Source of the DNA: a virus
Virus record (IMG/VR): IMGVR_UViG_3300047312_000166
Location: 1-23,224 of that record
DNA: 23,224 bases
Reading direction: 5' to 3' (one strand)
Within the stretch, counting starts at the first letter, position 1. Each line of letters begins with the position of its first letter. Both the position numbers and the translations under genes were made by a program. The notes under the pieces are model-generated. The model saw only the letters and a program-made list of their open reading frames with translations, was not told the DNA's origin and searched no databases. Shown here in pieces: positions 7,783 through 22,408 of this stretch.

Positions 7783-9333
7783 ATGAACTTTACTGATTTT
7801 ATACAAGAGACAGATTCGGAATTTTTGTTAGAGGCGAACCCACGTAAGGGCGTCACCGACAAAGCTTTAAGAGTTAAGCTAGTTCCGGACAATACTGACC
7901 GAGAATTGTTTATGCGATTTTCTGCATCTTTCCCAGATGAAGGGCGTAATCAGAAGGCAAGACAACAATTAGAGAGCATGGGATTGAAGCCGTCAACTCA
8001 GTTGGCCGCGAAAGTCGTGAGGGCCAGATATGCAGTCGCAGCGGCGCACGGCGCAGGCGCTAACCCGCAATTACAGAAAGATGCATCAGAACATAATGTA
8101 TATTTCACACAGCCAAGCGGCGAAACAGCAACTCTAGTTGTTGGAAGCAATGAAATTCCTAATATTAACATCGGGTTTGAATCATTGAAGCATAAATTAG
8201 AAAACTACCCCGTTTCCGATACCGAAACCGGCAATGTTAAAAAGGAATTACCTAGGTTTACGCATCCTACTGTTCAGGGTAAGATTTCGCCACGAGACAC
8301 AGAAGGTAATCCTACAAAGGGCAAGCAGACCAATGGTATTAATAAGGCAACATTAGGTATTTCTGGTCATCCATCAGAAGTAGGTTGGTCAATCGCTTAT
8401 CACAGAACTGGTGTTAAGGCTAATAAAATGACTCCAGAGGAAGAAAAGTATGCGGAAAAGCCTAGTTCTGTAGACACATCGCAATCGCCAGAAATGGGCG
8501 ATGAAGAGGAGCGAACTAGAGTTAAGAAATTAACCGCTGCCGGTAATAACTACGTTGATAATGTTCTCTTCAACCCAACTGAAATGCCGTCTGAAATGAA
8601 TGACTCTGAAGGGAATGAATTAACCAATAAGCAGGTATTGGGAATGATCAAGAATGCTATCCGCAGACAAAATCTAAAGAATGTAGATCCACAAGACGTT
8701 TTGTCAGCATTCGCAATGCAGGTTCGCAATAAGTATGGTGAATTTGAAAATTATGAAAATGCTGAAAAGATGATTAATTCTTTAATTCCTATTGCGATCC
8801 ATGATGCGAGAGAAGCATCGGGACATGGTAGAAAAGCCGGGGAAGACTTGACTCACGGTAAAAAATATCAGATGAAGGCAGGAAGCATTGAAGGCGAAGA
8901 AGATCAGGAAACCGGCAAGTTTAAAGGCAAGATGGTTTCTACTGATGATCTTAAGAAGAGACTTGATCTAAGAACTCCTGAATATCAAGGTGAGCCAGTT
9001 CAAGGCGCTGATAAGGAAGCTGAAGTTCCTTACGAACCTCGTCCTCAAAATATTAGAACTTATAAAGCATCTCATAGAAGTCCTGATCAACCTGATCAAA
9101 TAGCGGCAGATATGGCCGCAGAAAAAGAAAATAAGCGAACCAAGGACTTGTATGGAGCCGCTAAGCCAGAAATGCCCAAAGATGACATTGAACGCGCATC
9201 GCCAGAAGAAATGGCCGCACGCCGACAAGAATTTTTGGGTAAGGTGCGCAATCTAGCTGCATCTAATCAGCCAGCGGCAACTCAGCCATCTTCTGTCCTA
9301 CAGAGATTGCGACAGAAGTTTAAAGTTGCTTAA
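7783..9333 (+). CDS. Large charged protein, candidate internal head or scaffold-type protein
   Basis: This 516-residue protein is not recognised by family. It starts MNFTDFIQETDSEFLLEA, which resembles the T4 capsid-targeting sequence MKTYQEFIAE; IQE (7-9) and LLE (15-17) fit the [LI]xE pattern cut by the T4 head protease. The rest is highly charged and rich in Glu, Lys, Ala, Pro and Gln, with predicted disordered stretches (about 140-260 and 370-500), a helical middle (NKQVLGMIKNAIRRQ), and a basic end (SSVLQRLRQKFKV). An AGGG Shine-Dalgarno eight bases before the ATG supports the start. It could be scaffold, head core or an injected protein; this is inference. The convergent Tat-signal gene begins its stop two bases after this one's stop. 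Confidence 0.72.
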   Translation: MNFTDFIQETDSEFLLEANPRKGVTDKALRVKLVPDNTDRELFMRFSASFPDEGRNQKARQQLESMGLKPSTQLAAKVVRARYAVAAAHGAGANPQLQKDASEHNVYFTQPSGETATLVVGSNEIPNINIGFESLKHKLENYPVSDTETGNVKKELPRFTHPTVQGKISPRDTEGNPTKGKQTNGINKATLGISGHPSEVGWSIAYHRTGVKANKMTPEEEKYAEKPSSVDTSQSPEMGDEEERTRVKKLTAAGNNYVDNVLFNPTEMPSEMNDSEGNELTNKQVLGMIKNAIRRQNLKNVDPQDVLSAFAMQVRNKYGEFENYENAEKMINSLIPIAIHDAREASGHGRKAGEDLTHGKKYQMKAGSIEGEEDQETGKFKGKMVSTDDLKKRLDLRTPEYQGEPVQGADKEAEVPYEPRPQNIRTYKASHRSPDQPDQIAADMAAEKENKRTKDLYGAAKPEMPKDDIERASPEEMAARRQEFLGKVRNLAASNQPAATQPSSVLQRLRQKFKVA

Positions 9334-9335
9334 AT

Positions 9336-9800
9336 TTAGTGTAGTTGGGCCATAGATGAGCGTGAATTAAAAGGCATTACTTTAGATTTAGCTAATTTAC
9401 AAGATTCGATACGGTGAAATCTTCTAGTATCTCCCTTGTATTCGCGAGCAGTAATTCCTATTTCACCAGAAATTAGATCGTGATTTTTAGAGTTTTCGTG
9501 CCATAAGGTTGAGTATGCATTTAAATACCAAAGATCTTTGAAAATTGCGAGAGCATCTGTTTCATTAAATTTAATTATATTTATGCTAAAATACGGAACC
9601 AAATCTTCCAACTGCTTAAAGGATTGAAACTGTTTTGCATGAGACAAAAGATATCTAAGATTGGTTATAGTCCCATATTCACTGTACTCAATTTCGGGTA
9701 AGTTATTCGGATTATCTGGATTAAATGTTTTGGCATCTAGTCCAGATACTAGTGGTAATGCAGCCAAGCCAGTTAAAATAGCATTTCTTCTAGTAATCAT
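9336..9800 (-). CDS. Secreted protein with Tat-type signal peptide, unknown function
   Basis: The N-terminus is a clear twin-arginine signal: TRRNAILTGLAALPLVSG (3-20), with the RR pair, a hydrophobic stretch and a plausible cut after LDA (21-23). The mature part (about 130 residues) is helical and carries no motif I recognise; it has several Trp/Tyr residues and a basic end (TRRFHRIESCKLAKSK). Tat export usually implies a folded or cofactor-bearing cargo moved to the periplasm, which is rare for phage products. A GGAG site before the ATG supports the start, and it overlaps the GMP reductase gene by 11 bases, so it is expressed from the same transcript. Confidence 0.75.
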   Translation of the reverse strand: MITRRNAILTGLAALPLVSGLDAKTFNPDNPNNLPEIEYSEYGTITNLRYLLSHAKQFQSFKQLEDLVPYFSINIIKFNETDALAIFKDLWYLNAYSTLWHENSKNHDLISGEIGITAREYKGDTRRFHRIESCKLAKSKVMPFNSRSSMAQLH

Positions 9801-10851
9801 AATTTTCTCCAGAACTTGTATTTTGGTGTATCTTACTCACTTGGACAAATGTTGCACACTTGCCCATATCTTTAATTGACGTAGAGCCTATATAAGCGCA
9901 AGATGAACGAAGTCCACCTAAAACTTCTTGTATAATTTTATTAACAGAACCTTTATACTTTATATTCATTACTGCGCCCTCTGATGCCCGGTAGTCTTTA
10001 ATTGAACCATATTTAGATTGCGCATAATGCGTTGACATGCCATACCATGTCATTTCTTTTTTAGAACCATCAGGATTAAGTATCCAGTCAGCGGATGAAC
10101 ATTCGTCTGTTCCGGAAAGCATAGTTCCGACCATTACGAAGTCGCCGTTCCCGCCAAACACCTTGCATATATCGCCGGGATACTTGCATCCTCCGTCACT
10201 GCATACTAGTCCTAGTCTTTTTTCACCAGACTTAAGGCCATGAGCAACTTGCGAACATTCTTGTACTGCACTGAATGTTCCATATCCTACGCCGGTAACT
10301 AACCGAGTGCGACATGCCGCCCCAGGGCCTATTTGTATTTTTACTATATCAACACCACCATGAATAATTAACTCTTGGACCATTTCGGGAGTTGTGATAT
10401 TTCCTGCGCATATAATAGATTCTGGAAAATGATTTCTCACATCTCTACAGAACCCAACAAAACTTTCCATATATCCATTGGGGACATCAATTACAATATT
10501 TGGTTGGACCCCAGTTAACTTACGATATGTGATTAACTTGTCAAGTCCTTCTTGTTCTTTGCCTATAGACATCCATAGGTAATCGGTCCCGATTTCGTTG
10601 ATATAATCTGCTAGAACTTCAGGATTATAATACTTGTGTAGAACTGTAATAATTTTGTTTTTAGAAAGCTCCCTTGCCATGTCAATAGTCGCAATGGGAA
10701 CCATATTAGATGACATAATTGGAATACAGGTTAGCTCTCTTGGCGAGTGGTAAAACCTAAGCTTGCGCTCCAACGATACATCACTTCTACTATTTAATGT
10801 TGACCTTTTTGGTACCATGAGAACGTCATCAAAGTCAAGCTTAAATTCCAT
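9790..10851 (-). CDS. guaC: GMP reductase
   Basis: This converts GMP to IMP with NADPH, releasing ammonia. The 353 residues match GMP reductase (about 347 in E. coli) along the whole barrel: DFDDVLMVPKRST (6-18), MSSNMV (46-51), the catalytic loop IGPGAACRTRLVTGVGY (174-190) with Cys180, CSDGGCKYPGDICKVFG (217-233), GDFVMVGTMLSGTDE (236-250), WYGMSTHYAQSKYG (269-282) and YRASEG (287-292). There is no CBS insert, and the RASEG and SSCAYIG ends favour reductase over IMP dehydrogenase. AAGG before the ATG supports the start. It is the third-last gene of a minus-strand run. Phage copies are unusual; with the PRPP synthetase nearby it suggests rebalancing purines toward adenine. Confidence 0.92.
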   Translation of the reverse strand: MEFKLDFDDVLMVPKRSTLNSRSDVSLERKLRFYHSPRELTCIPIMSSNMVPIATIDMARELSKNKIITVLHKYYNPEVLADYINEIGTDYLWMSIGKEQEGLDKLITYRKLTGVQPNIVIDVPNGYMESFVGFCRDVRNHFPESIICAGNITTPEMVQELIIHGGVDIVKIQIGPGAACRTRLVTGVGYGTFSAVQECSQVAHGLKSGEKRLGLVCSDGGCKYPGDICKVFGGNGDFVMVGTMLSGTDECSSADWILNPDGSKKEMTWYGMSTHYAQSKYGSIKDYRASEGAVMNIKYKGSVNKIIQEVLGGLRSSCAYIGSTSIKDMGKCATFVQVSKIHQNTSSGENYDY

Positions 10852-10853
10852 TG

Positions 10854-11207
10854 TTATTCCTTATTCGATTCTGAATTGTATAACTTTTCTATTTCAGAGA
10901 TTTGGCTGGTTGTCATCCACATAGCCTTGATCCATCTCTTTAGCCGCACATCTTCTATCGGATTTTCTTGCCATTCGGCTAAACGCTTTTTACATATCTT
11001 TATTAACTTAGAGAATCCGTTTGGAACTCTCTCATAGAAAGATGGGCGTTCCCGATTGATAGGTCCGCTTGTTTTAAGGGTACAGCAATGCTGCCAAGCA
11101 GGATACCAATCCTCATCCTCCATTCTATTCGCGGTTATTTTTTCTCCATTATGGTAGTGAGTATGTTTCGGCGAGACAAAGTCTGAGTATTTTTTTGCCC
11201 ATTTCAT
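10854..11207 (-). CDS. Hypothetical phage protein (117 aa)
   Basis: No family is recognised. It is basic and Trp-rich, with an N-terminal KHTHYHNGEKI stretch holding three His residues, a CC pair (HCCTLK), and a helical C-terminal half (FSKLIKICKKRLAEWQ, RLKRWIKAMWMTTSQISEIEKL). A GGGTGAC site before the ATG supports the start. It ends two bases before the GMP reductase start, so the two are cotranslated or closely coupled. It could be a small regulator or partner of its neighbour; nothing in the sequence decides this. Confidence 0.65.
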   Translation of the reverse strand: MKWAKKYSDFVSPKHTHYHNGEKITANRMEDEDWYPAWQHCCTLKTSGPINRERPSFYERVPNGFSKLIKICKKRLAEWQENPIEDVRLKRWIKAMWMTTSQISEIEKLYNSESNKE

Positions 11208-11223
11208 TTTGTCACCCAGAACA

Positions 11224-11322
11224 TCAGCATCGTGGAGCCGGAGAATTAATTACGTCAATCATAGCTATGATGAAGTATATTAACATGGCGATTTCTAAGA
11301 TTAGTGTATTGCTGTCGCTCAT
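11224..11322 (-). CDS. 32-residue single-pass membrane peptide
   Basis: A short ORF with a strong GAGG site six bases before the ATG. The peptide is MSDSNTLILEIAM, then a hydrophobic run (LIYFIIAMIDVI), and ends in NSPAPRC. One transmembrane helix is likely. The ribosome site overlaps the stop of the preceding small gene (11331), an arrangement typical of coupled phage genes. It ends 16 bases before the gene at 11207. Role unknown. Confidence 0.6.
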   Translation of the reverse strand: MSDSNTLILEIAMLIYFIIAMIDVINSPAPRC

Positions 11323-11330
11323 ATTATACC

Positions 11331-11507
11331 TCAAGCCTTAGGCTTGCTCTTACTATCATTTAAAATTTTGTTTAAATGATAAATGATAGTAGATGCAGTG
11401 TCTACGAGCACGAAGGGCAAAATAGCGTGAACCATTAAAATGACTGCTGTTATAACCAGCACAACTACTATCTTAAAGGCAAAGATAAGGTGCTGGAAGT
11501 ATGTCAT
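11331..11507 (-). CDS. Small membrane protein (58 aa)
   Basis: I start this at 11507 (MTYFQHLIFAFK), ten bases after the stop of the preceding small gene; the longer frame from 11555 would overlap that gene deeply. The product has a long hydrophobic stretch (about residues 9-38: IFAFKIVVVLVITAVILMVH, then ILPFVLV), enough for one long or two short membrane helices, and a basic tail ending SKSKPKA. The ribosome site (ACGAAG) is weak. Holin-like size and layout are compatible, but there is no lysis enzyme nearby. Confidence 0.6.
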   Translation of the reverse strand: MTYFQHLIFAFKIVVVLVITAVILMVHAILPFVLVDTASTIIYHLNKILNDSKSKPKA

Positions 11508-11517
11508 TTTTACTTCG

Positions 11518-11691
11518 TTAAGATGGTTCATTTGCATTATTTGGTCTTTCTTCATTCACAGGATGCGTTTTGTACAATCTTTCACATTGTCTGCATTCTC
11601 CGTTTGTTCTGGAGAAGTTGCAGAATATGTGATGCGGGGTACCGCCAATTCCGTAAAGCGTTTTTTCTTTTACAGATATTTCAGCTTTCAT
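11518..11691 (-). CDS. 57-residue putative zinc-binding peptide
   Basis: The short ORF has an AGGGAA site about seven bases before the ATG, and its start overlaps the stop of the upstream ORF as ATGA. It holds a His/Cys cluster: HHIFC (20-24), then CRQC (33-36), giving HH-C-C-C spacing that could bind one zinc ion. The tail is polar and Asn-rich (ERPNNANEPS). No family is recognised. The good ribosome site and neat overlap, not length, support it. Confidence 0.6.
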   Translation of the reverse strand: MKAEISVKEKTLYGIGGTPHHIFCNFSRTNGECRQCERLYKTHPVNEERPNNANEPS

Positions 11692-11801
11692 TTTTTGTTC
11701 CCTAAGCTTTTCCAGTATTTCATTGCAGACGACGAATACAACGGCGATCCCAAGACCATAATTGTAATGATGATCCCCAGCCCCAATAAAAGTTTAAGCA
11801 T
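11688..11801 (-). CDS. 37-residue membrane or lipid-associated peptide
   Basis: The peptide begins MLKLLLGLGIIITIMVLGSP (1-20), a signal-like or single transmembrane helix, followed by LYSSSAMKYWKSLGNKK with a basic end. Weak AAAGAAAG site before the ATG. It overlaps the next gene by ATGA and follows the gene ending at 11816 by 14 bases, in a run of five small genes. It could be a holin-like or membrane-anchored peptide; not proven. Confidence 0.5.
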   Translation of the reverse strand: MLKLLLGLGIIITIMVLGSPLYSSSAMKYWKSLGNKK

Positions 11802-11815
11802 AATTTTGCTTTCTT

Positions 11816-12046
11816 TTAAAGATAAATTCTTAAAACAGTGCCGATAATCATGGGCAGAGAAACGATAATCGCTATAGACGCTACGATTGCTGCTGCGTAT
11901 TTGCCACTTCGGTATGGTGGATTATGGGAAACATAAGTATACGGAATTTTGGGTTTGGAATAACCCGATTTTCGTATACTTTTACTTCTGATCCAGCCAT
12001 TTCCGCGTGAAACAGACGCAATAAGATTAGAATCAATGAACTTCAT
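11816..12046 (-). CDS. Small protein with shared N-terminal tag and C-terminal membrane helix
   Basis: I prefer the start at 12046 (MKFIDSNLIASVS) over 12058 because the same N-terminal pattern opens the gene at 13559 (MKLINANLIASLS). The 76-residue product has a basic, aromatic middle (SKSIRKSGYSKPKIPYTYVS) and a C-terminal hydrophobic helix (about 50-72, AAAIVASIAIIVSLPMIIG), so it is probably membrane anchored with the N-terminus inside. It overlaps the end of the deaminase-like gene by 14 bases. Function unknown. Confidence 0.6.
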   Translation of the reverse strand: MKFIDSNLIASVSRGNGWIRSKSIRKSGYSKPKIPYTYVSHNPPYRSGKYAAAIVASIAIIVSLPMIIGTVLRIYL

Positions 12047-12464
12047 AGACTTTTTCATATTTATTTCTAAAACTTTTATCAGAATTGCTCCAGTAAACTT
12101 CAGTTATACCGAGAGCATCTAAAATCTGTTGGCAGTCATCACACGGCTTGCTATCCCCAAGTTCCAAGAAGCGGTTTAAGCGAATAATAACAAACTTTAT
12201 GCGATGGTTTATATAAGTGTGTCCCCATAGACGACTTATCGCGTCAATTTCAGCGTGAGTGAAAAGATATTTGGGTTTTGTGTTAAACCTCTTGGCAAAT
12301 TTCAAAACACGAGCAGATTCGGTGCTCATGTCATTATATCCAATCGTCAAAAGTTTGTTTTTGCGATAGGTAAACGCAAAATGCCAATTCCGGTTTAGGG
12401 ACGTATCGTAAATTTTAGGCAGTAAATTCTGTGCCAGCGTAAGGGATTTCTCAATAATGTACAT
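12033..12464 (-). CDS. Cytidine/deoxycytidylate deaminase-like zinc enzyme
   Basis: The 143-residue protein carries the zinc-deaminase signature: HAE (70-72) in THAEIDAISRLWG, and PCDDC (107-111) in SKPCDDCQQILDALGITEVYW, with the Glu as proton shuttle and His and two Cys as zinc ligands. The spacing and the trailing strand ITEVYW fit the dCMP/cytidine deaminase fold. The substrate cannot be read; dCMP or a modified nucleotide is likely in a phage. It heads a minus-strand run that continues through small membrane genes to GMP reductase, and is divergent from the PRPP synthetase gene. No Shine-Dalgarno; GCTATTATC lies just upstream of the ATG. Confidence 0.8.
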   Translation of the reverse strand: MYIIEKSLTLAQNLLPKIYDTSLNRNWHFAFTYRKNKLLTIGYNDMSTESARVLKFAKRFNTKPKYLFTHAEIDAISRLWGHTYINHRIKFVIIRLNRFLELGDSKPCDDCQQILDALGITEVYWSNSDKSFRNKYEKVYEVH

Positions 12465-12552
12465 AAGCGAGATAATAGCATAAAAATAAGGTTACGTCAA
12501 TGTGAGTTTTGGTCTTGACCAGGCGAATGTTTTGTGATAAAAAGGTCGTAGT

Positions 12553-13533
12553 ATGAATGAAATCAAATTATTCGGAATGCCTGGGACGATCCCTTTTGCG
12601 GAAAAAGTCGCCGCACAACTGGATTTATCGCTAGGCAGATACACCTACAAGCTTTTTGACGACAAAGAGCCGTACATTCGGTCTGACGAGAATGTACGGA
12701 ATATGGATGTTTATATCATTAGCTCTCTTTGTTTTACTAAAGATTTTACTCCGTCAGAAAAATTCATGCAGTTATTGATGTTTATCGGTTCATTGAGGGA
12801 TGCCTCCGCCGGCAAGATAAACGTGGTCGTGCCGTTTATGGCCTTTTCAAGGATGGATAGGAAAACACAGCCGAGAGAACCAATCGCCACAAAGTATGTC
12901 GCCCAACTCTTAGAATCTGTAGGCACAAATCGTATTATCTGCTGTGATATTCACAACTTAAGTTCTTTCCAGTGCAGTTTTCGTATTAATACAGACAATC
13001 TAGAAGCCAAAAATTTATTTGCTAAACACGTAGCTGCAACAATAAAAAACCACAAAAACATTGCTGTTCTTAGCCCTGATTCAGGCGGAATGTCAAGAGC
13101 GTCTAGATTCCGTAATGCACTGAACAATATTTTAAAGGAAAATGTTGGACTTGCTTATTTAGATAAAAGTAGAAGTCAGGCGGGTGACGTAAGCGGAAAT
13201 CATATCGTTGGTGATGTTAAAGACAAGCAAGTAGTGATTATTGACGACATGATTTCAAGCGGCAAAACAATTAAGCAGTGTGTTGATACAGTCAAATCAC
13301 ACGGCGGTACAGTTTGGGCAATTTGCGCCACTCATGGTTTATTTGTTGGAAAAGTTAATGATTATCTTGCTGGCGTAAATAAGATAATCATTACTGATAC
13401 GATAAATCATTTTGATGATTTAGATAAAAGTATACTTGAGAAAATTGAAATTGTGTCAACTACGGAAATGTTCGCCAAAGCTATTCGCAGAACGAATCAG
13501 GGCGGTTCTATTAGTTCTTTATTAAAAGACTAA
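12553..13533 (+). CDS. prs: Ribose-phosphate pyrophosphokinase (PRPP synthetase)
   Basis: This makes PRPP from ribose 5-phosphate and ATP. The 326 residues include PFMAFSRMDRK (94-104; usual form PYxxYxRQDRK), REPIATKYVAQLLESVG (108-124), CDIHN (131-135; usual DLHA), SPDSGGMSRASRF (174-186), and the PRPP-binding loop VVIIDDMISSGKT (227-239). Key metal and ribose-5-phosphate residues appear kept, while several usual residues are changed, as in phage forms. AAGG before the ATG supports the start. In some phages prs pairs with nadV for NAD salvage; no nadV is seen here, while GMP reductase lies 1.7 kb away. It is followed 25 bases later by the gene at 13559. Confidence 0.92.
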   Translation: MNEIKLFGMPGTIPFAEKVAAQLDLSLGRYTYKLFDDKEPYIRSDENVRNMDVYIISSLCFTKDFTPSEKFMQLLMFIGSLRDASAGKINVVVPFMAFSRMDRKTQPREPIATKYVAQLLESVGTNRIICCDIHNLSSFQCSFRINTDNLEAKNLFAKHVAATIKNHKNIAVLSPDSGGMSRASRFRNALNNILKENVGLAYLDKSRSQAGDVSGNHIVGDVKDKQVVIIDDMISSGKTIKQCVDTVKSHGGTVWAICATHGLFVGKVNDYLAGVNKIIITDTINHFDDLDKSILEKIEIVSTTEMFAKAIRRTNQGGSISSLLKD

Positions 13534-13558
13534 ACCTTAAAATATAAGAAAGAAAAAA

Positions 13559-13930
13559 ATGAAGCTCATCAACGCAAATCTAATCGCATCCCTCAGTTAT
13601 GGTGGGAAGGGCTATATTAAAACTAAAAATTACTATAGCGATTTTTCTGTTCAGGTTATGGTCCAGCCAAATGGTGGTGGGGAAAAGCATCTTATTACAG
13701 GATATAATATAAAAATGGATGCGCAATCACAGGCCAACTACGATAACAAAAGCTCCAAGCCAATTATACTGAATTATGACTTTGTTATGCCTATCGCTGG
13801 TATTATTGTAGGATGCAACACTTTTTATCGTGGCGAACTTATTAATAAGGGTAGCGTAAACGATAAAATCAATCACGCTATAGGCGATAAGTGCTCTATT
13901 AGAGCAGAGCTAAAGATACTTGAGTGGTAA
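13559..13930 (+). CDS. Hypothetical protein with shared N-terminal tag (123 aa)
   Basis: No family is recognised. The N-terminus MKLINANLIASLSYGGKG matches that of the gene at 12046 (MKFIDSNLIASVSRGNG), but the remainder differs: a beta-rich body (FSVQVMVQPNGGG, KPIILNYDFVMPIAGIIVG) and an end with IGDKCSIRAELKIL. It follows prs by 25 bases with a GAAAGAAA ribosome site, so it is probably cotranscribed. It converges on the methyltransferase at 13934 with a three-base gap. Confidence 0.7.
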   Translation: MKLINANLIASLSYGGKGYIKTKNYYSDFSVQVMVQPNGGGEKHLITGYNIKMDAQSQANYDNKSSKPIILNYDFVMPIAGIIVGCNTFYRGELINKGSVNDKINHAIGDKCSIRAELKILEW

Positions 13931-13933
13931 TAG

Positions 13934-14509
13934 TTATCTTTCTTCCAGTATCTTCCATACTTCATAAACATCTGGGCCAAATAGCTTAGATGGAACGGGC
14001 AAGACTACACGTTTTTCGGTGAATACATCTGAAATCACGGACTCAATAGGCTCAATTGTTTGATAGCTCGTCAATCCGCCGTTTTCTTGAACAATGCTTT
14101 CGTTGATCTTGCCATAATAATAAAAGCCAGCAACTAATGCTGCCTTCACTCTGATTTCTTTAAATATTCTTTCATATAATTCATAATTTTCTTTTACCGT
14201 AGCCGTTATTTCTGATGAAAATAGGCTTACGAATGAAAGCGGTTTAAACCCTCCTAAAACTTGCTTTAAATCACAATTTCTATAATCTATTTTTTTGACG
14301 TTGACGCCCTCAAAATTTTTGTCTAGTCCTAGATATGCTCTAGGGCGGGTATACCTCTTGAATTCTCCCAGCCCACACCCCAAATCAACCGTATACTCAA
14401 AACAAGAATTGAATTTAATAATATCAAAAATCCAGTCATGCGCCTTTCTAACTGTAGGCTCATGTAAGTATTCGTCGTACATTTTATAAAATTCGGTGTT
14501 GTATGGCAT
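13934..14509 (-). CDS. Class I SAM-dependent methyltransferase, substrate unknown
   Basis: I start at 14509 (MPYNTEFYKMYDEY), since a GGAG site lies just before it; a longer frame from 14536 adds nine residues without a site. Motif I is TVDLGCGLGEF (40-50), followed by YLGLDKNF (59-66), the acidic end of the second strand binding SAM ribose. The later part (SLFSSEITATVKENYELYERIF, VKAALVAGFYYYG) fits the fold. There is no DPPY-type motif, so the substrate is probably a small molecule or protein rather than DNA. It is 191 residues long, short for this fold. Confidence 0.75.
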   Translation of the reverse strand: MPYNTEFYKMYDEYLHEPTVRKAHDWIFDIIKFNSCFEYTVDLGCGLGEFKRYTRPRAYLGLDKNFEGVNVKKIDYRNCDLKQVLGGFKPLSFVSLFSSEITATVKENYELYERIFKEIRVKAALVAGFYYYGKINESIVQENGGLTSYQTIEPIESVISDVFTEKRVVLPVPSKLFGPDVYEVWKILEER

Positions 14510-14516
14510 AATTATT

Positions 14517-14533: not shown

Positions 14534-14565
14534 CAAATTAGAGTAGTCATATGAGTAAATAAAGC

Positions 14566-15431: not shown

Positions 15432-15434
15432 AAT

Positions 15435-16075: not shown

Positions 16076-16089
16076 AATATGTTATTCGG
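16076..16089 (-). promoter_or_regulatory. CCGAATAACATATT box adjacent to an ATG
   Basis: The minus strand reads CCGAATAACATATT and then ATG. It resembles ACGATAAGTATATT at 18523-18536, also directly before an ATG. Both genes lack a Shine-Dalgarno, which suggests a promoter placed so that the mRNA starts at or near the ATG. Inferred. Confidence 0.4.
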
Positions 16090-16107
16090 TAAATGATTTG
16101 TTAAACT

Positions 16108-16731
16108 TTAGGATTTATTACTATTTTCTAGTTCGGTGTTCCAGTAAAGTTCAGACAGGAATGCATCCCATGACTTCGGCATAACTCTACGATCAATGTT
16201 AAATATACTAAATTTTGGTTTAAATGGTTGTCTAATAAGCTTCATCCCGATTTCATCAGGCGTATTGTTGGCCTTGTACCTATTGCATTTGGTGCAAGCG
16301 ATTACGCAATTAAACCAATTAGTTTTTCCATTTCTTGATACCGGTATAATGTGATCTATAGACAGCTCTTTGGTCCCAGGTGTAGCCCCACAATATTGAC
16401 ATTGATTGTTATCTCTGTTGTAGATAGCTCTACGATTAAACGGCACCTGTCTATTGGGAAAGCCATCGTATCTGGTTAAGAGTATGACCTCTGGAATTCT
16501 ATATGCGGTACTTCTAGTTTTAATAACACTTTCATTATCGTTAGGACGAATTTGCGACCAATCATTCCATGTATAGGTGGAAAAACCGTTAATCGCGTCA
16601 ACTATTCTTGCTTTTGGCTCATTGTTCTTATAGGTGCTGAACAGCTTGGAAATAGCCGACTCTAGAGGATTAATGCCAATAGGCATCCATGACTTATTGA
16701 GAACTAAAACCGGATGAGCGGCGACATACAT
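16108..16731 (-). CDS. HNH endonuclease
   Basis: The 207-residue protein has a full HNH/zinc motif in the second half: CQYC (111-114), LSIDHIIPVSRNGKTNWFN (123-141) with the DH pair, and CTKCNRYK (146-153). The N-terminus PVLVLNKSWMPIGINPLESA (7-26) is a conserved lead-in I know from phage and bacterial HNH proteins of this type. It probably nicks or cuts DNA, and may act in packaging, recombination or as a mobile element. A perfect TATAAATA lies four bases before the ATG, with no Shine-Dalgarno. It is not inserted in another gene. Confidence 0.88.
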   Translation of the reverse strand: MYVAAHPVLVLNKSWMPIGINPLESAISKLFSTYKNNEPKARIVDAINGFSTYTWNDWSQIRPNDNESVIKTRSTAYRIPEVILLTRYDGFPNRQVPFNRRAIYNRDNNQCQYCGATPGTKELSIDHIIPVSRNGKTNWFNCVIACTKCNRYKANNTPDEIGMKLIRQPFKPKFSIFNIDRRVMPKSWDAFLSELYWNTELENSNKS

Positions 16732-16735
16732 AGCA

Positions 16736-16743
16736 TATTTATA
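16736..16743 (-). promoter_or_regulatory. Perfect TATAAATA late-type box before the HNH gene
   Basis: On the minus strand TATAAATA is followed by TGCT and then the ATG at 16731. It is identical to the T4 late promoter core. Placed this close, transcription would start near the ATG, giving a leaderless mRNA. Function is inferred. Confidence 0.5.
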
Positions 16744-16761
16744 ATAGCGACGAACGTATTA

Positions 16762-17007
16762 TTATATGACAGGATCTGTTTCCGGTTGTTTAACGATAAC
16801 TGCTTTTTTATAGTCCAATAAAAGAGATTTATTACTAAAATAGGGAGTTCCATATTTTGTATTTAGAGTAGAATTTTTTACATACTTTTCTGCTTTGTGC
16901 TTTGTCGTGAAGTGAGCCAACAAAGTCCTAACTTCTTCATATATGTCCATGTCGGCTTCATCATCAAATCCGACAGACACTTTTTTGACTCCATATAAAT
17001 CGTACAT
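16762..17007 (-). CDS. Hypothetical protein (81 aa)
   Basis: No family is recognised. It starts MYDLYGVKKVSVGFDDEAD, continues through a helix with VRTLLAHFTTKHKAEKYVK, and ends in strands (PYFSNKSLLLDYKKAVIV). The layout of a short helix-then-strands fold is shared by many small phage proteins. The ribosome site (GAAAGAAA) is weak. It is the last gene of the minus-strand operon that begins at 18522. Confidence 0.65.
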   Translation of the reverse strand: MYDLYGVKKVSVGFDDEADMDIYEEVRTLLAHFTTKHKAEKYVKNSTLNTKYGTPYFSNKSLLLDYKKAVIVKQPETDPVI

Positions 17008-17027
17008 GTTCTAATTTCTTTCTCAAC

Positions 17028-17303
17028 CTATGTTAACTCATCGCCATAATAGCCCGCGGGAATTTCAGTCCATTTCATTCCTGACACCGGCACATCTTTT
17101 GCCTTCTTCTTATTCTTTGCTTTCTTAGCAGTTATTTTTTTCACTGGCGCGAAATCAAAGGCAGACAACGGCTTTAATCCCACGAATGCTTTTCTTGGAT
17201 CGTTTCGGTTACGAAAGCATTTGTCGCATATGTCATAGTTACACGCAACATCTTCAACGGTATTTGCGTTTGACATAGGTTGTCCACAGTAATCGCACTT
17301 CAT
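17028..17303 (-). CDS. Zinc-ribbon protein with basic linker (91 aa)
   Basis: The N-terminus has two CxxC knuckles, CDYC (3-6) and CDKC (26-29), consistent with one zinc. The middle is a Lys/Ala-rich stretch (KKITAKKAKNKKKAKD) likely to be disordered and nucleic-acid binding, and the end is acidic with Trp. It begins like the gene at 18277 (MICDYCG versus MKCDYCG), suggesting related zinc ribbons in one operon. It overlaps the upstream gene's end as ATGA. Confidence 0.7.
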   Translation of the reverse strand: MKCDYCGQPMSNANTVEDVACNYDICDKCFRNRNDPRKAFVGLKPLSAFDFAPVKKITAKKAKNKKKAKDVPVSGMKWTEIPAGYYGDELT

Positions 17304-17521
17304 GATCGCTCCTTTATTTCTGCTAATCTTTGTTTTCTATGAGGCTCTAGATGTCTTTCGTGCCAGCTTTTGTCTCTCTGGCTGCTAAGGTCAATCCAAT
17401 GTTGAAAATTTTCTGGCTCTACCGGCTCCTCTCCATCGGCAAATTCCACAAAATCAGGCACACATTCTCCCCCTTTAATGTTTGGGTAATACTTAAGTTT
17501 TATATAATACTTCAATTTCAT
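17300..17521 (-). CDS. Hypothetical protein (73 aa)
   Basis: No family is recognised. It begins with a repeated basic-aromatic string (MKLKYYIKLKYYPNIKGG), then an acidic middle (FADGEEPVEPENFQHW) and a basic helical end (WHERHLEPHRKQRLAEIKERS). The ATG lies two bases after the stop of the TrpRS gene, and it overlaps the next gene by four bases, so all three are coupled. A role with the synthetase is possible but unproven. Confidence 0.62.
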   Translation of the reverse strand: MKLKYYIKLKYYPNIKGGECVPDFVEFADGEEPVEPENFQHWIDLSSQRDKSWHERHLEPHRKQRLAEIKERS

Positions 17522-17523
17522 TT

Positions 17524-18261
17524 TTAGCTCCTGAGTTTATTAAAAATTGATTCGCTTAATCGTTCTTTTAACTCTAGGTTCATAGACGGAATCTCGCCGC
17601 CCACAAAGCAAGAGTATAAATAACACAAATTATCCATACCGTTTTTATCGGTGGTTGCCTTCTTTAACTTTAAACTAATTTCTTCATAACTGTCGTCTAA
17701 AAACAAACAACCGCCTGGATTTGATTTTGACATTTTAACAGATGGATTTTTTAAATCCTTAATTCTTCCCACTACAATCTCTGGTTCAGGTATAACAAAA
17801 TCTTCGCTGAAAACTCTGTTATATTTTTTTAGTAGCTTAGATGCATACTGAAGATGCTGTGTTTGATCTTCCCCAACAAGTACTTTTTTAAATCCTGCTA
17901 CGTCGTGCGTCATCAAAACTGGATACGTTAATAAATGGGCGCTTGGATTAGACGACGACTTGTATTGTGTCATTCTTTCTAAATCGCCCATTGCGGATAT
18001 TGAAAGAAGTTTGAAGTAAAATTCGGCATTAAAAACATCCTTTTGAATTATGATTTTAGAAACGCCAAATTTGTTCAGTAGCTCAATGCTATTCTTGATT
18101 TCCTGCCCAGGCGCATGATAGTTAGCAACTAAAACGCTAGCTCCAGCTTTTCCTGGCAGTATTACCGAGAAATAGTGACCAAGATGCAATTTGCCTGTTG
18201 GCCTGAACCCGCACAATTTATCACCAAAGACACACCATGTTTCTTCTCCTGAAAACCCCAT
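17524..18261 (-). CDS. Tryptophanyl-tRNA synthetase, C-terminally short
   Basis: The 245 residues carry class I synthetase signatures: GFRPTGKLHLGHYFSV (18-33) with HLGH (26-29), AMGDLERMTQYK (90-101), TYPVLMTHDVAGFKKVLVGEDQTQHLQYA (two parts at 112-128 and 129-140), and a perfect KMSKS (176-180) in SVKMSKSNPGG. GEDQxQH and the GDLERMTQ string favour TrpRS over TyrRS. Bacterial TrpRS is about 330 residues; here only about 65 follow KMSKS instead of about 140, so the anticodon-binding helical domain is cut down. It could charge tRNA poorly, make aminoacyl-adenylate only, or act in trans. It sits in an operon with zinc-ribbon proteins. The start lacks a Shine-Dalgarno. Confidence 0.87.
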   Translation of the reverse strand: MGFSGEETWCVFGDKLCGFRPTGKLHLGHYFSVILPGKAGASVLVANYHAPGQEIKNSIELLNKFGVSKIIIQKDVFNAEFYFKLLSISAMGDLERMTQYKSSSNPSAHLLTYPVLMTHDVAGFKKVLVGEDQTQHLQYASKLLKKYNRVFSEDFVIPEPEIVVGRIKDLKNPSVKMSKSNPGGCLFLDDSYEEISLKLKKATTDKNGMDNLCYLYSCFVGGEIPSMNLELKERLSESIFNKLRS

Positions 18262-18276
18262 TTTACACTAAAAACT

Positions 18277-18522
18277 TTACTTGTCAAGGCCCTTAGATGC
18301 AGAATAGCGACAGCGCAAGTAGTAAATCAATCCCGTTGGACCAAGTAATGGCTGCACACTTACAAGCTTATTGGCTATGGATGCCGTATTTAAATTTTTA
18401 AATAGGGGAATAGACATATGAGAAAACATGTTAATATTTTTCCCGCTACACTTTGCGCATACCTGATGTTCATTTAATGGAACCAGTTTATCGGATTTAT
18501 TTCCACAGTAATCGCATATCAT
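18277..18522 (-). CDS. Zinc ribbon fused to a gp23-type major-capsid motif (81 aa)
   Basis: Residues 3-25 are a zinc ribbon (CDYC then CAKC). Residues about 48-75 read ASIANKLVSVQPLLGPTG and then LIYYLRCRYSASKG. This matches the N-arm region of T4 gp23, which has (P)NLIAFDICGVQPMNSPTG followed by QVFALRAVYGKDP: the VQP, PTG, LR and Y positions all coincide. No full capsid protein is encoded here, so the fragment is either a remnant or a functional mimic. The TATA-like box directly before the ATG and the lack of a Shine-Dalgarno fit a leaderless start. It heads the operon with TrpRS. Confidence 0.72.
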   Translation of the reverse strand: MICDYCGNKSDKLVPLNEHQVCAKCSGKNINMFSHMSIPLFKNLNTASIANKLVSVQPLLGPTGLIYYLRCRYSASKGLDK

Positions 18523-18536
18523 AATATACTTATCGT
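18523..18536 (-). promoter_or_regulatory. ACGATAAGTATATT box directly before an ATG
   Basis: The minus strand reads ACGATAAGTATATT and then ATG (18522). It belongs to the recurring [AC]CGATWA group and is also a TATA-like box adjacent to a start without a Shine-Dalgarno. It should drive the operon from 18522 down to 16762. Inferred. Confidence 0.42.
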
Positions 18537-18553
18537 ATTATGCTTTAAGACAC

Positions 18554-18560
18554 ATAAATA
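18554..18560 (+). promoter_or_regulatory. ATAAATA box four bases before the paralogue-1 start
   Basis: ATAAATA (18554-18560) is followed by GTAT and the ATG at 18565. There is no Shine-Dalgarno. This is close to the T4 late core TATAAATA. It is divergent from the operon that starts at 18522, so the 42-base gap holds two back-to-back promoters. Inferred. Confidence 0.45.
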
Positions 18561-18564
18561 GTAT

Positions 18565-19998
18565 ATGCGATTTCGTGCCTACCTAGAGTCGTTCGGCTCG
18601 TTTAATTATAGGGTTCCCAATGACCCAGAAGAGCAATTATACGACTTCTATATGCTTAATTGGCTTAGGGGCAGAAATTCGCTTTATAACAAAGCTAATC
18701 AACATGGGTTGGCTATCTCACCTAAAAAGCCAGAATATGGCGGTGACATGGGCCATGAAGACAAAATAGATTATATGTTAGATGAAGTCGCACATACTCT
18801 AATCCCCAAGCTTAAATCCGACTTCCTTAAGGCAGTGCTATTCGGCATTACTGCGGAAATGCGGCATGTGCCTCGTGAAATGGGAGATTATAAAAATTTT
18901 TCGGCTAATATAGCAGACGGCGTCGGCGAGAGATACGCAAAAATATACAATGATTTTTTTAGTTATTATAATTATGATAATTTTAAAGACAAAATGGCAG
19001 AATTTAATAAATCTGTTCCTGTAAAAGACAGAATGTTTAGAAATGTTAAAAATTTCGTAGATCCGCATAATGCCGATTTTCTTCATTATAATATGACCGG
19101 TAGAATGGCCGCTTATCGCAGTATGTTAAAAGGCGGCTCTACTGAGAGAGATTTCGTAGAAATGGCTAAATTTACGTTTGCGAACGGTAGTTGGCAGGCT
19201 AGCTATGGTGGCCAACCATGGGCAAATGCTTGTGATGGATGGCTGCAATTATATGATTCAAAAGGTGAAAATTCTGATATAGTCGCCATTGATCACATTT
19301 ATGATCTACAGCATAATAATGGTTCTGTTTTAAATAAAGTAGCTAAGTATATTAAGGGGGGAAATACTACATGGCTCAAAACTGCTTTGGATGATAAGGC
19401 GCAGTCTAATGGTCCGATGGATATAGTGGATAAAGTATCGTCAAGCATGAGAGAACTAGCTTTGCCGGCCATAAAATTAAAATTTGGAACAACGTATCAA
19501 GACAAGGCATCTGCGGAAATTTCACCATATAAAGGCTCTTATGAAAACCAATATTTTTTGACTGGCCATGACTGGAGTGCCTACGAAGGAGCTTATCATA
19601 GTTCTTCAATTCCTGAATTAAAGTTAGTGCGACTTGGGCTATATCTTGGTTGGTCGCCTAAAAAGGTTACATTAAAGGATATTGAAAGGTTAAAAAATAC
19701 TTTAAAAGTTCCTCAGTTAGATGACGCGCGGATAAAGAAAGTGCTTACATCTGAATACAATAATAAAAGAAACATAGAAACTGGTAACTTTAAATATGTA
19801 AAGGTTAAATTAAGTAGTGATTTAATACGGGAAATAGACAAATTTATAAGGCTAAAAGACACCTGGCTATATGAAGCAGTAGTTAAAAAAATAGACAGTG
19901 AAACTCATTATGGATATGCAGCATCAAAATACTTATATGGCTACTGCGCATCATTAGTCGGTAAACAAAGAAGTATAGATGAGGTCGTAGAGCCATGA
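18565..19998 (+). CDS. Large hypothetical phage protein, first of two tandem paralogues
   Basis: This 477-residue protein shares its whole layout with the next gene. Both begin M-R-F-x-x-[YF]-[LI]-E-S-F-G-S-F-N-Y-R-V-P, which also resembles T4 capsid-targeting starts. Shared landmarks are EEQLYDFYMLN, KANQHGL, KPEYGG, DYMLDEV, DFVEMAKF, the YGG-W-ACD-WLQLY stretch (about 213-230), AIDHIYD-HN, and ALPAIKLKFG (about 305-314). The body is helical with no membrane helix and no enzyme motif I recognise. The gene probably encodes a virion or head-internal protein; this is inference. ATGA overlap at 19995-19998 couples it to the second copy. Confidence 0.7.
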   Translation: MRFRAYLESFGSFNYRVPNDPEEQLYDFYMLNWLRGRNSLYNKANQHGLAISPKKPEYGGDMGHEDKIDYMLDEVAHTLIPKLKSDFLKAVLFGITAEMRHVPREMGDYKNFSANIADGVGERYAKIYNDFFSYYNYDNFKDKMAEFNKSVPVKDRMFRNVKNFVDPHNADFLHYNMTGRMAAYRSMLKGGSTERDFVEMAKFTFANGSWQASYGGQPWANACDGWLQLYDSKGENSDIVAIDHIYDLQHNNGSVLNKVAKYIKGGNTTWLKTALDDKAQSNGPMDIVDKVSSSMRELALPAIKLKFGTTYQDKASAEISPYKGSYENQYFLTGHDWSAYEGAYHSSSIPELKLVRLGLYLGWSPKKVTLKDIERLKNTLKVPQLDDARIKKVLTSEYNNKRNIETGNFKYVKVKLSSDLIREIDKFIRLKDTWLYEAVVKKIDSETHYGYAASKYLYGYCASLVGKQRSIDEVVEP

Positions 19999-21401
19999 GA
20001 TTCTCTCAATTTATAGAATCTTTTGGTTCATTTAATTATCGTGTTCCCGATGATCCAGAAGAACAATTATATGACTTCTATATGTTGAATTTGCTAAGAG
20101 GCAGAAATTCGCTTTATAACAAGGCTAATCAACATGGCTTAACCATAATGCCTAAGAAGCCAGAGTACGGCGGCGAAATGAATCATGAAGATAAAGTAGA
20201 CTACATGCTGGATGAAGTGGCAAAAGTTCTTATACCAAAACTTAAATCAGATTTATTAGAAGCGGTTCTTTTTAGTATAACGGCAGAATTTAGACATGGT
20301 GGCGACCGAGATACGCAAGAAATACCAATGAGCCATATGACAGATATGATTCGTAGACAAATGGGCGCTAAATATTCTAGAATATTTAGCGATTTTTTTA
20401 ACCATTTAGACTCTTCTTTTGATGCATCGTTTAGGCCAAAAATTCAAGCAAATTCTCAATTGATGAAAAACACTATTAACAGTACTCCTATCTATAACAG
20501 TAGAAGATTGGCATCTTATTCATCGATGGAAAAAAGTACCCATAATGAAAAAGACTTTGTAGAAATGGCTAAATTTGTTTTTGGGGAGGGGGATTGGGAC
20601 AAAGATTACGGTGGTCCTTCATGGGAACAGGCTTGTGATGCATGGCTCCAACTGTATAATTCTAAATCAGAAGATTCAGACATTATAGCGATTGATCATA
20701 TGTACGATATAGAGCACAATACAGGGAACATTCTTGACAAGAGCAATCACTTTTTAAAGAACGGGCAATTTACATGGCTCAGTAATGCCCTTAATAAAAA
20801 AGCTAGAATTACTTCTCCGATGCAAATCATTGACGATATTTCTCCAGCAATGACACAAATAGCCTTGCCTGCCATAAAGTTAAAGTATGGCCAAACATTA
20901 GAAGATAAAATGAAGGCTGATACATTTAAAACACAGATCCCAGGAGCTGGGTTTGATGACTTAATTAAAAAGGAATTTGACGAAAATCAAGGAATATATG
21001 ATGCAGGTATTCCTGAACTAAAAATGGCTAGAACTCTTAGGGGAATTTTAGCTGCTTATAAAGTGCGTAGAATTGACTTTAGAATCATTGAATTAGCTAA
21101 GTCTAAAATTAGAGTCCCATTAGACAGTCAAAAAATTAAACAGTTCTTTCAGCAAGAGTATCAAAATTGCAGAAATATAGAAACTGGTAACTTTGGTCAT
21201 GTTAAGGTGCTTATGACTAAAGATTTAATATACGAAATACAAAAAAATTTAGAAGATCCATATGGCCATAGATCAGGAATAAAAGACAGAATAGCCGGTG
21301 AAACAAATTATGACGATGAAGTTATTAAGAGTTTAGTAGATTACTGTGAAAAGTTAGTTGAAGATGGCGGAAATGTTAGCTCAATATTAGCGGTTCGCTA
21401 A
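19995..21401 (+). CDS. Large hypothetical phage protein, second of two tandem paralogues
   Basis: The 468-residue product is a paralogue of the preceding gene, strongly alike for the first 90 residues and in the AIDHMYDIEHN, ALPAIKLKYG, RNIETGNF and GHVKV-like stretches; the central region (about 110-170) and end have diverged. It begins MRFSQFIESFGSF, the same capsid-targeting-like start, with a GAGG ribosome site inside the end of the first gene. No enzyme motif is seen. A local duplication with drift is the simplest origin, giving two proteins that may assemble together. The stop overlaps the convergent MT-A70 gene by four bases. Confidence 0.7.
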   Translation: MRFSQFIESFGSFNYRVPDDPEEQLYDFYMLNLLRGRNSLYNKANQHGLTIMPKKPEYGGEMNHEDKVDYMLDEVAKVLIPKLKSDLLEAVLFSITAEFRHGGDRDTQEIPMSHMTDMIRRQMGAKYSRIFSDFFNHLDSSFDASFRPKIQANSQLMKNTINSTPIYNSRRLASYSSMEKSTHNEKDFVEMAKFVFGEGDWDKDYGGPSWEQACDAWLQLYNSKSEDSDIIAIDHMYDIEHNTGNILDKSNHFLKNGQFTWLSNALNKKARITSPMQIIDDISPAMTQIALPAIKLKYGQTLEDKMKADTFKTQIPGAGFDDLIKKEFDENQGIYDAGIPELKMARTLRGILAAYKVRRIDFRIIELAKSKIRVPLDSQKIKQFFQQEYQNCRNIETGNFGHVKVLMTKDLIYEIQKNLEDPYGHRSGIKDRIAGETNYDDEVIKSLVDYCEKLVEDGGNVSSILAVR

Positions 21402-21931
21402 GCTTCATTACCCCAGCAATACCAGCCTTCTCTTTTAGCTCTAGCATACATGTCTAATCGTGGTTCTGGCGATAGCTTTTCTACTAGCTTATAGAAATCA
21501 TCTGGTTTCTCGCTATGCCTGCCTCTATCCCATGAAAAGCATGTTCCACTAGTAGCCTGTGAATGCCGTCCACCCATTCCAAAAGGATTTCCGTGTCTAC
21601 TTCCTACCCGAGACACAAGTATATGTTCTGTATTACATCTAAAACGTCCTACGCCAAGCCCTGGCTTCTTCCAAGTCCAAAGTATGATTGGTTTAGCCTT
21701 CCATGCGCCAGCGACCGTATAGGCCCAATCTACGTGTTGTGCAAGGCACCATATGTATAAGTGTGCCTGTTTGGCAATCGGCGGCTTGATAGAACAGATT
21801 TCGTCTAAGCTTAATGTGTTATAATGAGATTGTGGACTGCCCTTGGGCGCTTTTCCATTAATAATTGACATTTCTGGTGTCCAAGGCGGGTCAACCACTA
21901 TTGTGCGAAACTCTACATCAGGAAATTGCAT
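21398..21931 (-). CDS. MT-A70-family adenine methyltransferase
   Basis: The 177 residues have the catalytic DPPW (14-17) in IVVDPPWTPEM, then HYNTLSLDEICSIKPP (36-51), HLYIWCLAQH (57-66), ILWTWKKPGLGVGRF (83-97), TEHILVSRVGS (101-111), and the end pattern RLDMYARAKREGWYCWGNE (158-176). This is the MT-A70 layout used for N6-adenine methylation of DNA or RNA in phages and bacteria. The length is normal. It is divergent from the 75-residue gene at 21961 and overlaps the end of paralogue 2 by four bases. No nuclease partner is nearby, so self-modification is the likely role. Confidence 0.9.
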   Translation of the reverse strand: MQFPDVEFRTIVVDPPWTPEMSIINGKAPKGSPQSHYNTLSLDEICSIKPPIAKQAHLYIWCLAQHVDWAYTVAGAWKAKPIILWTWKKPGLGVGRFRCNTEHILVSRVGSRHGNPFGMGGRHSQATSGTCFSWDRGRHSEKPDDFYKLVEKLSPEPRLDMYARAKREGWYCWGNEA

Positions 21932-21939
21932 ATTTTAAG

Positions 21940-21954
21940 TTAGTTTACTAAATA
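21940..21954. promoter_or_regulatory. Operator-like near-palindrome and TAAATA box
   Basis: TTAGTTTACTAA (21940-21951) differs by one base from the perfect palindrome TTAGTTAACTAA at 3246-3257; both lie in gaps between divergent genes. It overlaps TAAATA (21949-21954), which ends six bases before the ATG at 21961 with no Shine-Dalgarno. A shared regulator is possible. Inferred. Confidence 0.38.
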
Positions 21955-21960
21955 ACTTAT

Positions 21961-22188
21961 ATGAAAACCTGGACCCAATACTGCGAAAATATGCCAAATT
22001 ATGCTACCTCTGCTCGTCCGATGACGGCAGGTGGATTTAATGGAACAGTTAACCTAGGGCAGGCTAACTTACAATTAGTTGGGCAAGCATTGCAGATAGA
22101 TAGCGGAACTCACAGCATAAGGCTTCCGCTAACATCACAACAGGTTCAGCAGATACAAAAAGAAGTAGGATCAGGATTAGGTAGATAA
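21961..22188 (+). CDS. Small protein with capsid-targeting-like start, tandem copy 1 (75 aa)
   Basis: The N-terminus MKTWTQYCEN resembles the T4 internal-protein leader MKTYQEFIAE. The body has GGFNGTVNLGQANLQLVGQALQID, split here as GGFNGTVNLG and NLQLVGQALQI, then a Gln-rich end (SQQVQQIQKEVG). It is a paralogue of the next gene. Predicted to be a short beta-strand plus helix protein; function unknown. No Shine-Dalgarno; TAAATA ends six bases upstream. The stop is one base before the next ATG. Confidence 0.65.
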   Translation: MKTWTQYCENMPNYATSARPMTAGGFNGTVNLGQANLQLVGQALQIDSGTHSIRLPLTSQQVQQIQKEVGSGLGR

Positions 22189-22189
22189 T

Positions 22190-22408
22190 ATGAAAACTTG
22201 GACTCAATATCTAGAGGCTGTAGGCACACCAGCACCAGCAATTTTTATGCCAGGACTCTTTAATGGTCTAACAAACTTGGGGCCAGTAAGCGTAAGGGTA
22301 GTTGGCAATATACTACAAATACAAACCAATAGGGATGCGTCTAATCTAGTTCTTACAATGCCACAGATTCAGCAGCTTAAGCGAGATTTTAACTTAACGG
22401 TTATTTAG
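22190..22408 (+). CDS. Small protein with capsid-targeting-like start, tandem copy 2 (72 aa)
   Basis: It opens MKTWTQYLEAVG and shares FNG-x-x-NLG, VRVVGNILQI and a Gln-rich late segment (MPQIQQLKRDF) with copy 1, but the linker between (TPAPAIFMPG) differs. YLEA sits where the T4 leader has FIAE-A, so cleavage after Glu9 is possible. The two genes are adjacent with a one-base gap and probably share one mRNA. The 3' end overlaps the convergent gene at 22394 by 15 bases. Confidence 0.65.
   Translation: MKTWTQYLEAVGTPAPAIFMPGLFNGLTNLGPVSVRVVGNILQIQTNRDASNLVLTMPQIQQLKRDFNLTVI

Follow-up and report, generated by a model that had tools for sequence, protein, structure and literature searches.

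T4-type capsid-targeting leaders predicted on a large set of candidate packaged proteins in a huge phage

Introduction

Why would otherwise unrelated proteins of one phage start with nearly the same few residues? The question is raised by a viral fragment of 23,224 bases (IMG/VR record IMGVR_UViG_3300047312_000166; "the window" below means this whole stretch), in which five genes begin with a short leader resembling the capsid-targeting sequences (CTSs) of phage T4. The initial annotation had suggested that the phage packages a leader-tagged set of proteins for injection into the host, with these five as candidates, and had pointed to a genome-wide search for the leader and to identification of the prohead protease as checks. 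The window is identical to positions 135,207-158,430 of G001 (IMGVR_UViG_3300046517_002304), a T4-type phage record of 511,233 bases, and our comparison of this record with other phages indicates that the leaders are very probably T4-type CTSs that have been expanded into a large cargo system of G001.

In T4, the internal proteins IPI, IPII and IPIII and the protein Alt carry CTSs with the features discussed here, that is, a short N-terminal propeptide, a Glu at the cut, an S77 protease and diverse bodies (PMC9026906, PMC3012670). The T4 protease gp21 cleaves after L/I-x-E; targeting of IPIII depends on its residues 4 and 7, and processing on residues 8 and 10 (PMC9026906). It has already been proposed that CTSs allow T4-like phages to package varied proteins and that T4 relatives carry other proteins with CTS-like sequences (PMC9026906). 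In a literature in which subscription journals were thinly covered, neither a CTS family numbering tens of genes in a single phage nor T4-type late promoters placed right at the start codon were seen described, which is weak evidence of absence; in PMC9004378 the word "leaderless" appears just within the title of a reference.

Results

All five open reading frames (ORFs) and their starts were recovered as first annotated, all on the plus strand. A 516-residue protein is encoded at 7783..9333 (leader MNFTDFIQE/T, 7783-7809, the slash being the predicted cut), and its body has no family match. A 477-residue protein at 18565..19998 (MRFRAYLE/S, 18565-18588), with a body similar to phrog_20946 (1.7e-11), is followed by a 468-residue paralogue at 19995..21401 (MRFSQFIE/S, 19995-20018), which is 47% identical over its full length and whose start overlaps the stop of 18565. 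A 75-residue protein at 21961..22188 (MKTWTQYCE/N, 21961-21987) is likewise followed, 2 bases past its stop, by a 72-residue paralogue at 22190..22408 (MKTWTQYLE/A, 22190-22216; 38-40% identity). The T4-late-type promoter core TAAATA lies at 18555..18560, position -10 from the ATG of 18565, and at 21949..21954, position -12 from that of 21961, and is absent before 7783.

Among 200 window ATGs (both strands, at least 50 open codons following), the pattern M.{1,2}[FWY]..[FY][LIVMC].?E matches just these five. Each has two aromatic residues three apart and a hydrophobic residue next to the second, but since this spacing is part of the search pattern it is not independent evidence. With 18565/19995 and 21961/22190 each forming a pair of paralogues, the five leaders amount to three independent cases, and blastp at 1e-4 gave no similarity between these three groups, so that the leader is indeed carried by otherwise unrelated proteins. 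The likeness to T4 was also correctly described: in the T4 record ipII and ipIII begin MKTYQEFIAE and ipI begins MKTFKEF...ITE, sharing with the leaders an aromatic-x-x-aromatic stretch followed by a hydrophobic residue. The leader aromatics correspond to IPIII positions 4 and 7, and the hydrophobic residue and Glu to positions 8 and 10.

The genome-wide search was made with this strict pattern, M-x(1,2)-[FWY]-x-x-[FY]-[LIVMC]-x(0,1)-E, and with a looser expression, comparing start-zone ATGs (every upstream ATG within 300 bases) with ATGs inside genes. Genes of G001 came from a simple in-house caller (686 genes), which missed 21961 and began the 18565 gene at an ATG within it. The leader proved to be over-represented at gene starts of G001, with 16 strict matches among 1,123 start-zone ATGs against 1 among 1,894 internal ones (Fisher p 1.4e-6), or 12/1,119 (p 5.7e-5) once the four listed window genes are removed. 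The looser expression gave 36/1,123 against 9/1,894, so that about 30 G001 genes above background bear the leader. Other phages are the fair tests, since both expressions were written after the window and T4 had been seen. LR756511, a 595-kb phage, had 45 loose matches among 1,523 start-zone ATGs against 10 among 2,310 internal ones (p 1.5e-10) and 8 strict matches against 2 (p 0.012), and G003 had 12/397 loose matches against 1/718 (p 3.3e-5). Four LR756511 matches (117902, 392743, 543819 and 576394) are likely false positives because the alignment with their relatives already covers the first residues; they were retained in all counts. In T4 the expression catches ipII and ipIII and misses ipI and alt. 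Apart from these, T4 gene 61.1 (18966-19130, minus strand), annotated as hypothetical, begins with the CTS-like stretch MKTFKEFIKED and is a candidate head protein. Leader-bearing proteins of other cultured phages are AGS80945.1 of the Caulobacter phage Cr30, which has a YHGTS body, and PSSM2_114 and PSSM2_115 of P-SSM2.

A T4-type S77 prohead protease, the other element to be identified, is encoded by G001 at 164290-164700 (PF03420, 1.4e-25). The same record encodes gp23 at 161744-162946 (4.8e-87), beginning 3.3 kb beyond the window end, a T4-type portal at 173979-175076 (5.7e-63) and a gp55-like late sigma factor (2.9e-11). The 168085 gene, once considered for the portal, was dropped in favour of that match.

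Several results fit a predicted cut after hydrophobic-x-Glu. The T4 record gives IPI as 95 residues, starting with MKTFKEFTSTTTPVSTITE followed by Ala; mature IPI has 76 residues (PMC3012670), which fits a cut after the Glu of MKTFKEFTSTTTPVSTITE. In leaders where the expression leaves position P3 of the site free, this residue is hydrophobic in 9/12 cases in G001 (background 0.37, p 0.009) and 11/16 in LR756511 (background 0.36, p 0.007). The gp23 protein itself begins [FY]L[NH]E/[AG] in all 12 records compared (G001, LR756511 and ten S77-bearing records). The strongest test comes from the 18565 family, in which nine aligned sequences have Glu8 as the sole invariant leader column, with Tyr15 and Pro18 invariant in the body, and in which relatives with unlike leaders still keep the putative site just ahead of the body. 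The family was counted as 16 body copies, with both window proteins included and L004 excluded because it nearly duplicates L005. In 14 of them hydrophobic-x-Glu precedes the conserved Tyr by 5-8 residues, at frame positions from 8 to 615; the remaining two, L011 and L012, miss this anchor and by eye read QLNE/LQYHAP and QLNE/VTYHVP. The site precedes the body even where the body lies within a long, polyprotein-like frame, as in the second copy of L007, in L010 and in a 1,928-residue protein of G002. As a separate observation, these L007, L010 and G002 frames (the last starting at 167351, minus strand) contain repeated bodies or leader-like stretches, with hydrophobic-x-Glu before the bodies, and the G002 protein has by eye a GSxxG...DxD nucleotidyltransferase-like stretch.

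The leader genes are also associated with a close position of the late-promoter core. TAAATA at -13 to -9 from an ATG occurs 26 times in G001, 47 in G003 and 24 in LR756511 (expected 2.0, 1.0 and 1.9), mostly at -10 or -11, whereas in T4, phiM12, P-SSM2 and G002 it is found mainly at -45 to -21 (28, 21, 41 and 22 times) and in the close position only 1, 0, 5 and 0 times. A close core precedes 10/36 leader genes of G001 against 28/650 others (p 7e-6), and 10/39 of LR756511 against 22/910 (p 1.4e-7), the latter test leaving out leader ATGs inside called genes. A core mostly 10-12 bases from the ATG, as seen across the genomes of these three phages and before part of the leader genes, predicts leaderless late mRNAs, in contrast to T4.

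The combination of promoter and leader was then used as a DNA pattern (core at -10 plus M-[KN]-F-x-x-W-[LF]) and scanned over IMG/VR viral contigs. It was found in 60 stretches, one of them G001, with 75 matches, 65 of which have an ORF of at least 40 residues. Changing Trp to Gly left 3 stretches, and moving the core 7 bases further away left 8 matched, 3 of them with an ORF of at least 40 residues. In 50 non-redundant cassette ORFs, 2 of them from G001, Lys stands at position 4 in 40, and 49 have a Glu somewhere between residues 8 and 16, against a background of 47% (p 1.7e-15). A hydrophobic-x-Glu lying wholly outside the pattern, with Glu at 10-16, was present in 29/50 (background 226/1,609 windows, 14%; p 6e-13); Glu at residues 8-9 was not counted because the pattern fixes its P3, and the figure is 39/50 when it is. 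Among 21 further cassette records of at least 80 kb, an S77 protease was found in 10 and a gp23 match in 11. In an alignment of 40 cassette proteins the only invariant columns were M1, F3 and W6, all fixed by the search pattern.

The bodies behind these leaders include several enzyme families. When 20 leader proteins of G001 were compared with Pfam, NUDIX (9e-12) and RelA_SpoT (2e-7) passed the cut-off, while PARP/ADP-ribosyltransferase (ART; 1.8e-4) fell below it and GNAT (PHROG acetyltransferase, 1.5e-4) was a further weaker match; by eye, G001 has three more bodies with YH[GA][TS] and one HELTH protein. The YHG[TS] motif occurs in 3/36 leader proteins of G001 against 2/650 others (p 0.001) and is not enriched in LR756511 (0/44 against 1/905), and when PDB was searched by phmmer with two ART-like bodies, the first had no match and the second a single one, at E 0.97. 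Leader proteins of LR756511 matched NADAR (2e-19), the HAD_SAK_1 domain of RNA-repair proteins (1.6e-15), Peptidase_C39 (5e-14) and tRNA_lig_CPD (8e-9), along with PolyA_pol (1e-25) on a borderline leader. Five of the 10 LR756511 proteins scanned had no match over the cut-off, and since these 10 of 44 were picked by eye the yield is not a rate. The 40 IMG/VR cassette proteins gave ART-PolyVal (1e-18), NUDIX (5e-15), GNAT (2.5e-7), PolyA_pol (3e-25) in L188 and in L209, which nearly copies L188 but is cut, DUF4379 in two, a Helicase-associated domain in one, and weaker matches. For two families the leader is present in one phage and absent from another: the alignment of the LR756511 NADAR protein with a G001 protein that has no leader begins at residue 13 of the former and residue 1 of the latter (50% identity), and that of the G001 NUDIX protein with a LR756511 protein, again leaderless, begins at residues 15 and 3 respectively (34%).

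The window bodies themselves gave little. Pfam/PHROG-type family scans of 7783, 18565/19995 and 21961/22190 returned no enzyme match. For 7783, a search of IMG/VR viral contigs returned the parent record only, and tblastn of 7783 and of the 246244 protein against phages had no match; a likeness of 7783 to the G001 leader protein at 309346 (27% over 134 residues; 9e-6 without composition correction) was not significant by phmmer and is not claimed. The 22190 protein occurs at 100% identity in one contig besides the parent record, L242. An AlphaFold2 model of 18565 built from 9 sequences has a helical body with a mean predicted local distance difference test score (pLDDT) of 63.5; 20 of 30 ten-residue blocks in 11-310 reach a pLDDT of at least 70, and residues 1-11 and several further stretches are below 50. 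This model had no match in PDB (best E 1.1) and four weak matches to unnamed viral proteins (best 9.3e-4).

Discussion

Most of the checks made on the sequence favour a leader-tagged, packaged set as predicted, namely the protease, the excess at gene starts, the enrichment of late-promoter cores, the kept junction site and the pairs with and without leader. The set appears to be far larger than the five window proteins and includes likely enzymes. By analogy with T4, the leader genes would be transcribed late, together with the head genes, and the two leader aromatics, three apart, would bind the scaffold core of the prohead, so that the attached protein is drawn inside. The S77 protease would then cut after the Glu of hydrophobic-x-Glu at the leader end, and the freed mature protein would stay in the head with the DNA until it is ejected into the next host. 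Because several bodies resemble NAD/ADP-ribose, nucleotide or protein enzymes, an injected kit for take-over and counter-defence is the best reading of the cargo.

This reading places G001 near several known systems. The T4 protein Alt, one of the CTS-bearing bodies, is an ADP-ribosyltransferase (PMC9026906, PMC3012670). T4 has a handful of CTS genes, whereas 36 leader genes were counted in G001 and 44 in LR756511, with 5 and 7 expected. Polyvalent proteins (PMC5512222) and the ART, NUDIX and NADAR proteins of myoviruses, described as often packaged (PMC9503650, PMC5512222), have the same kinds of domain, and their injection has been predicted. Polyvalent proteins combine two or more disparate domains; the window leader proteins have 72-516 residues and no recognised domain, and some relatives of the 18565 body lie in open frames of 909-1,928 residues. 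Those works argue for packaging from MuF or portal fusions or from neighbourhood (PMC5512222, PMC9503650), whereas the mark here is a leader with its predicted cut site, placed on proteins that are not fused. In the giant phages SPN3US and phiKZ inner head proteins are likewise targeted and trimmed by a gp21-type protease, and the diverged paralogues gp53 and gp54 described there have their first 15 residues in common; these systems differ in the motifs named, AxE/SxE, and in propeptide length, which is above 100 residues in several cases and 20 in one (PMC5694885).

Some results weigh against the CTS interpretation. The [LI]xE site of T4, in its strict form, holds for 7783 (FIQE) and is absent from the other four window leaders, which end [YF][LIC]E with an aromatic P3; all five contain the broader hydrophobic-x-Glu, which the search expression itself imposes in part. 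The 9 internal matches mean that about 5 of the 36 loose matches in G001 are expected by chance, and just 2 of 25 G001 leader proteins, the five window proteins included, pass the curated Pfam cut-off. No significant leader excess was found in T4 (5/375 matches in start zones against 3/785 internal), P-SSM2, Cr30, phiM12 or G002 (p 0.08, 0.09, 0.49, 0.34 and 0.18). G003 had 0/397 strict matches against 1 internal, a hydrophobic P3 in 0/2 free cases, and a close core before 5/11 leader genes against 57/233 others (p 0.15, not significant). No S77 protease was found in 11 of the 21 cassette records and no gp23 in 10; the 11 without protease, the largest of 381 kb, have a T4 portal in none and a gp55-like factor in 2, and may be fragments.

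The alternative that deserves most attention, possible though clearly less probable than packaging for injection, is that the leaders do target the prohead, but that what they bring in serves inside the head as structural or assembly factors that line or shape its very large shell and is not ejected. The 18565 family adjoins the head genes in G001 (153.8-156.6 kb, with gp23 from 161.7 kb), its G002 copy (start 167.4 kb, minus strand, 1,928 residues) is near the protease at 160.7-161.2 kb, the window bodies lack an enzyme match, and T4 IPIII influences head assembly (PMC9026906). In LR756511, however, the same family (419-422 kb) is distant from the protease (243 and 526 kb), and no assembly role is expected of ART-PolyVal, NUDIX, NADAR, RelA_SpoT, GNAT or PolyA_pol bodies. 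The structural and the injected readings can both be right, for different members.

Explanations that dispense with the head fare worse. Short N-terminal leaders serve many compartments, and the cassette records in which no S77 gene was found would suit a leader that addresses the membrane, the tail or the replication compartment, with a Glu unrelated to the head protease; we regard this as improbable, given that the leader matches the tested CTS positions of IPIII (PMC9026906), that the junction site is kept even for bodies inside long open frames and that gp23 starts in an FLxE-like manner. Less plausible still is a leader arising as a by-product of start signals, where a late promoter at -10 would need A/T-rich first codons that spell M-K/N-F-K. 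The close TAAATA of the three phages, and its enrichment before leader genes in G001 and LR756511, would agree with this, but the exact core at -13 to -9 is absent from 26/36 G001 leader genes, the leader is absent from 28/38 G001 genes with a close core, and neither the Trp codon, whose change to Gly cuts the matches from 60 to 3, nor the later Glu is A/T-rich. The least credible account appeals to chance or to simple paralogy, with random matches adding to a few gene duplications: two paralogue pairs do make up four of the five window proteins, but the contrast between start and internal ATGs recurs in three phages, the Glu test lies outside the search pattern, and the 40 aligned proteins share only the residues that the pattern fixes.

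If the leaders act as CTSs, they would offer a simple and testable tag for proteins injected by large phages, which are otherwise guessed from fusions or neighbourhood, and candidate injected effectors could be listed straight from metagenomic genomes. The chances appear about even for the further proposal, taken together with its payload, that the cassette (TAAATA at -10, ATG, M-N-F-K-x-W-L, hydrophobic-x-Glu) can turn any gene into a late, packaged, protease-released and injected effector expressed from a leaderless mRNA. If this is true for a group of huge T4-type phages, the virion would carry dozens of pre-made counter-defence proteins, among them ADP-ribosyltransferases, NUDIX and NADAR enzymes, an alarmone-synthetase-like protein and RNA-repair enzymes, a payload comparable to the effector repertoire of a secretion system. 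Late promoters ahead of enzymes that could counter early host defences would also make sense, since their products would serve the infection that follows.

Other features of the window and its surroundings

Small frames resembling the N-terminal arm of gp23 were seen at three places in G001. The window has an 81-residue ORF at 18277-18522 (minus strand) with a CxxC...CxxC Zn-ribbon-like start, followed by a stretch 49% identical to G001 gp23 over 63 residues (3e-14). Just past the window, a 63-residue ORF at G001 158943-159134 (plus strand) has 75% identity over 20 residues to the gp23 arm (1e-5), and a third copy of the arm matches at 412800-412991 (minus strand; 5e-5). Similar gp23 fragments were seen in G003, G010 and G011, and these small frames may be remnants or a second capsid-directed tag. 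Elsewhere in the window, a gene at 968-3025 (plus strand) encodes a fusion of an FkbM methyltransferase, tetratricopeptide repeats (TPR) and a family 9 glycosyltransferase, and one at 3272-3709 (plus strand) matches the podophage fibre family Gp80 (7e-26).

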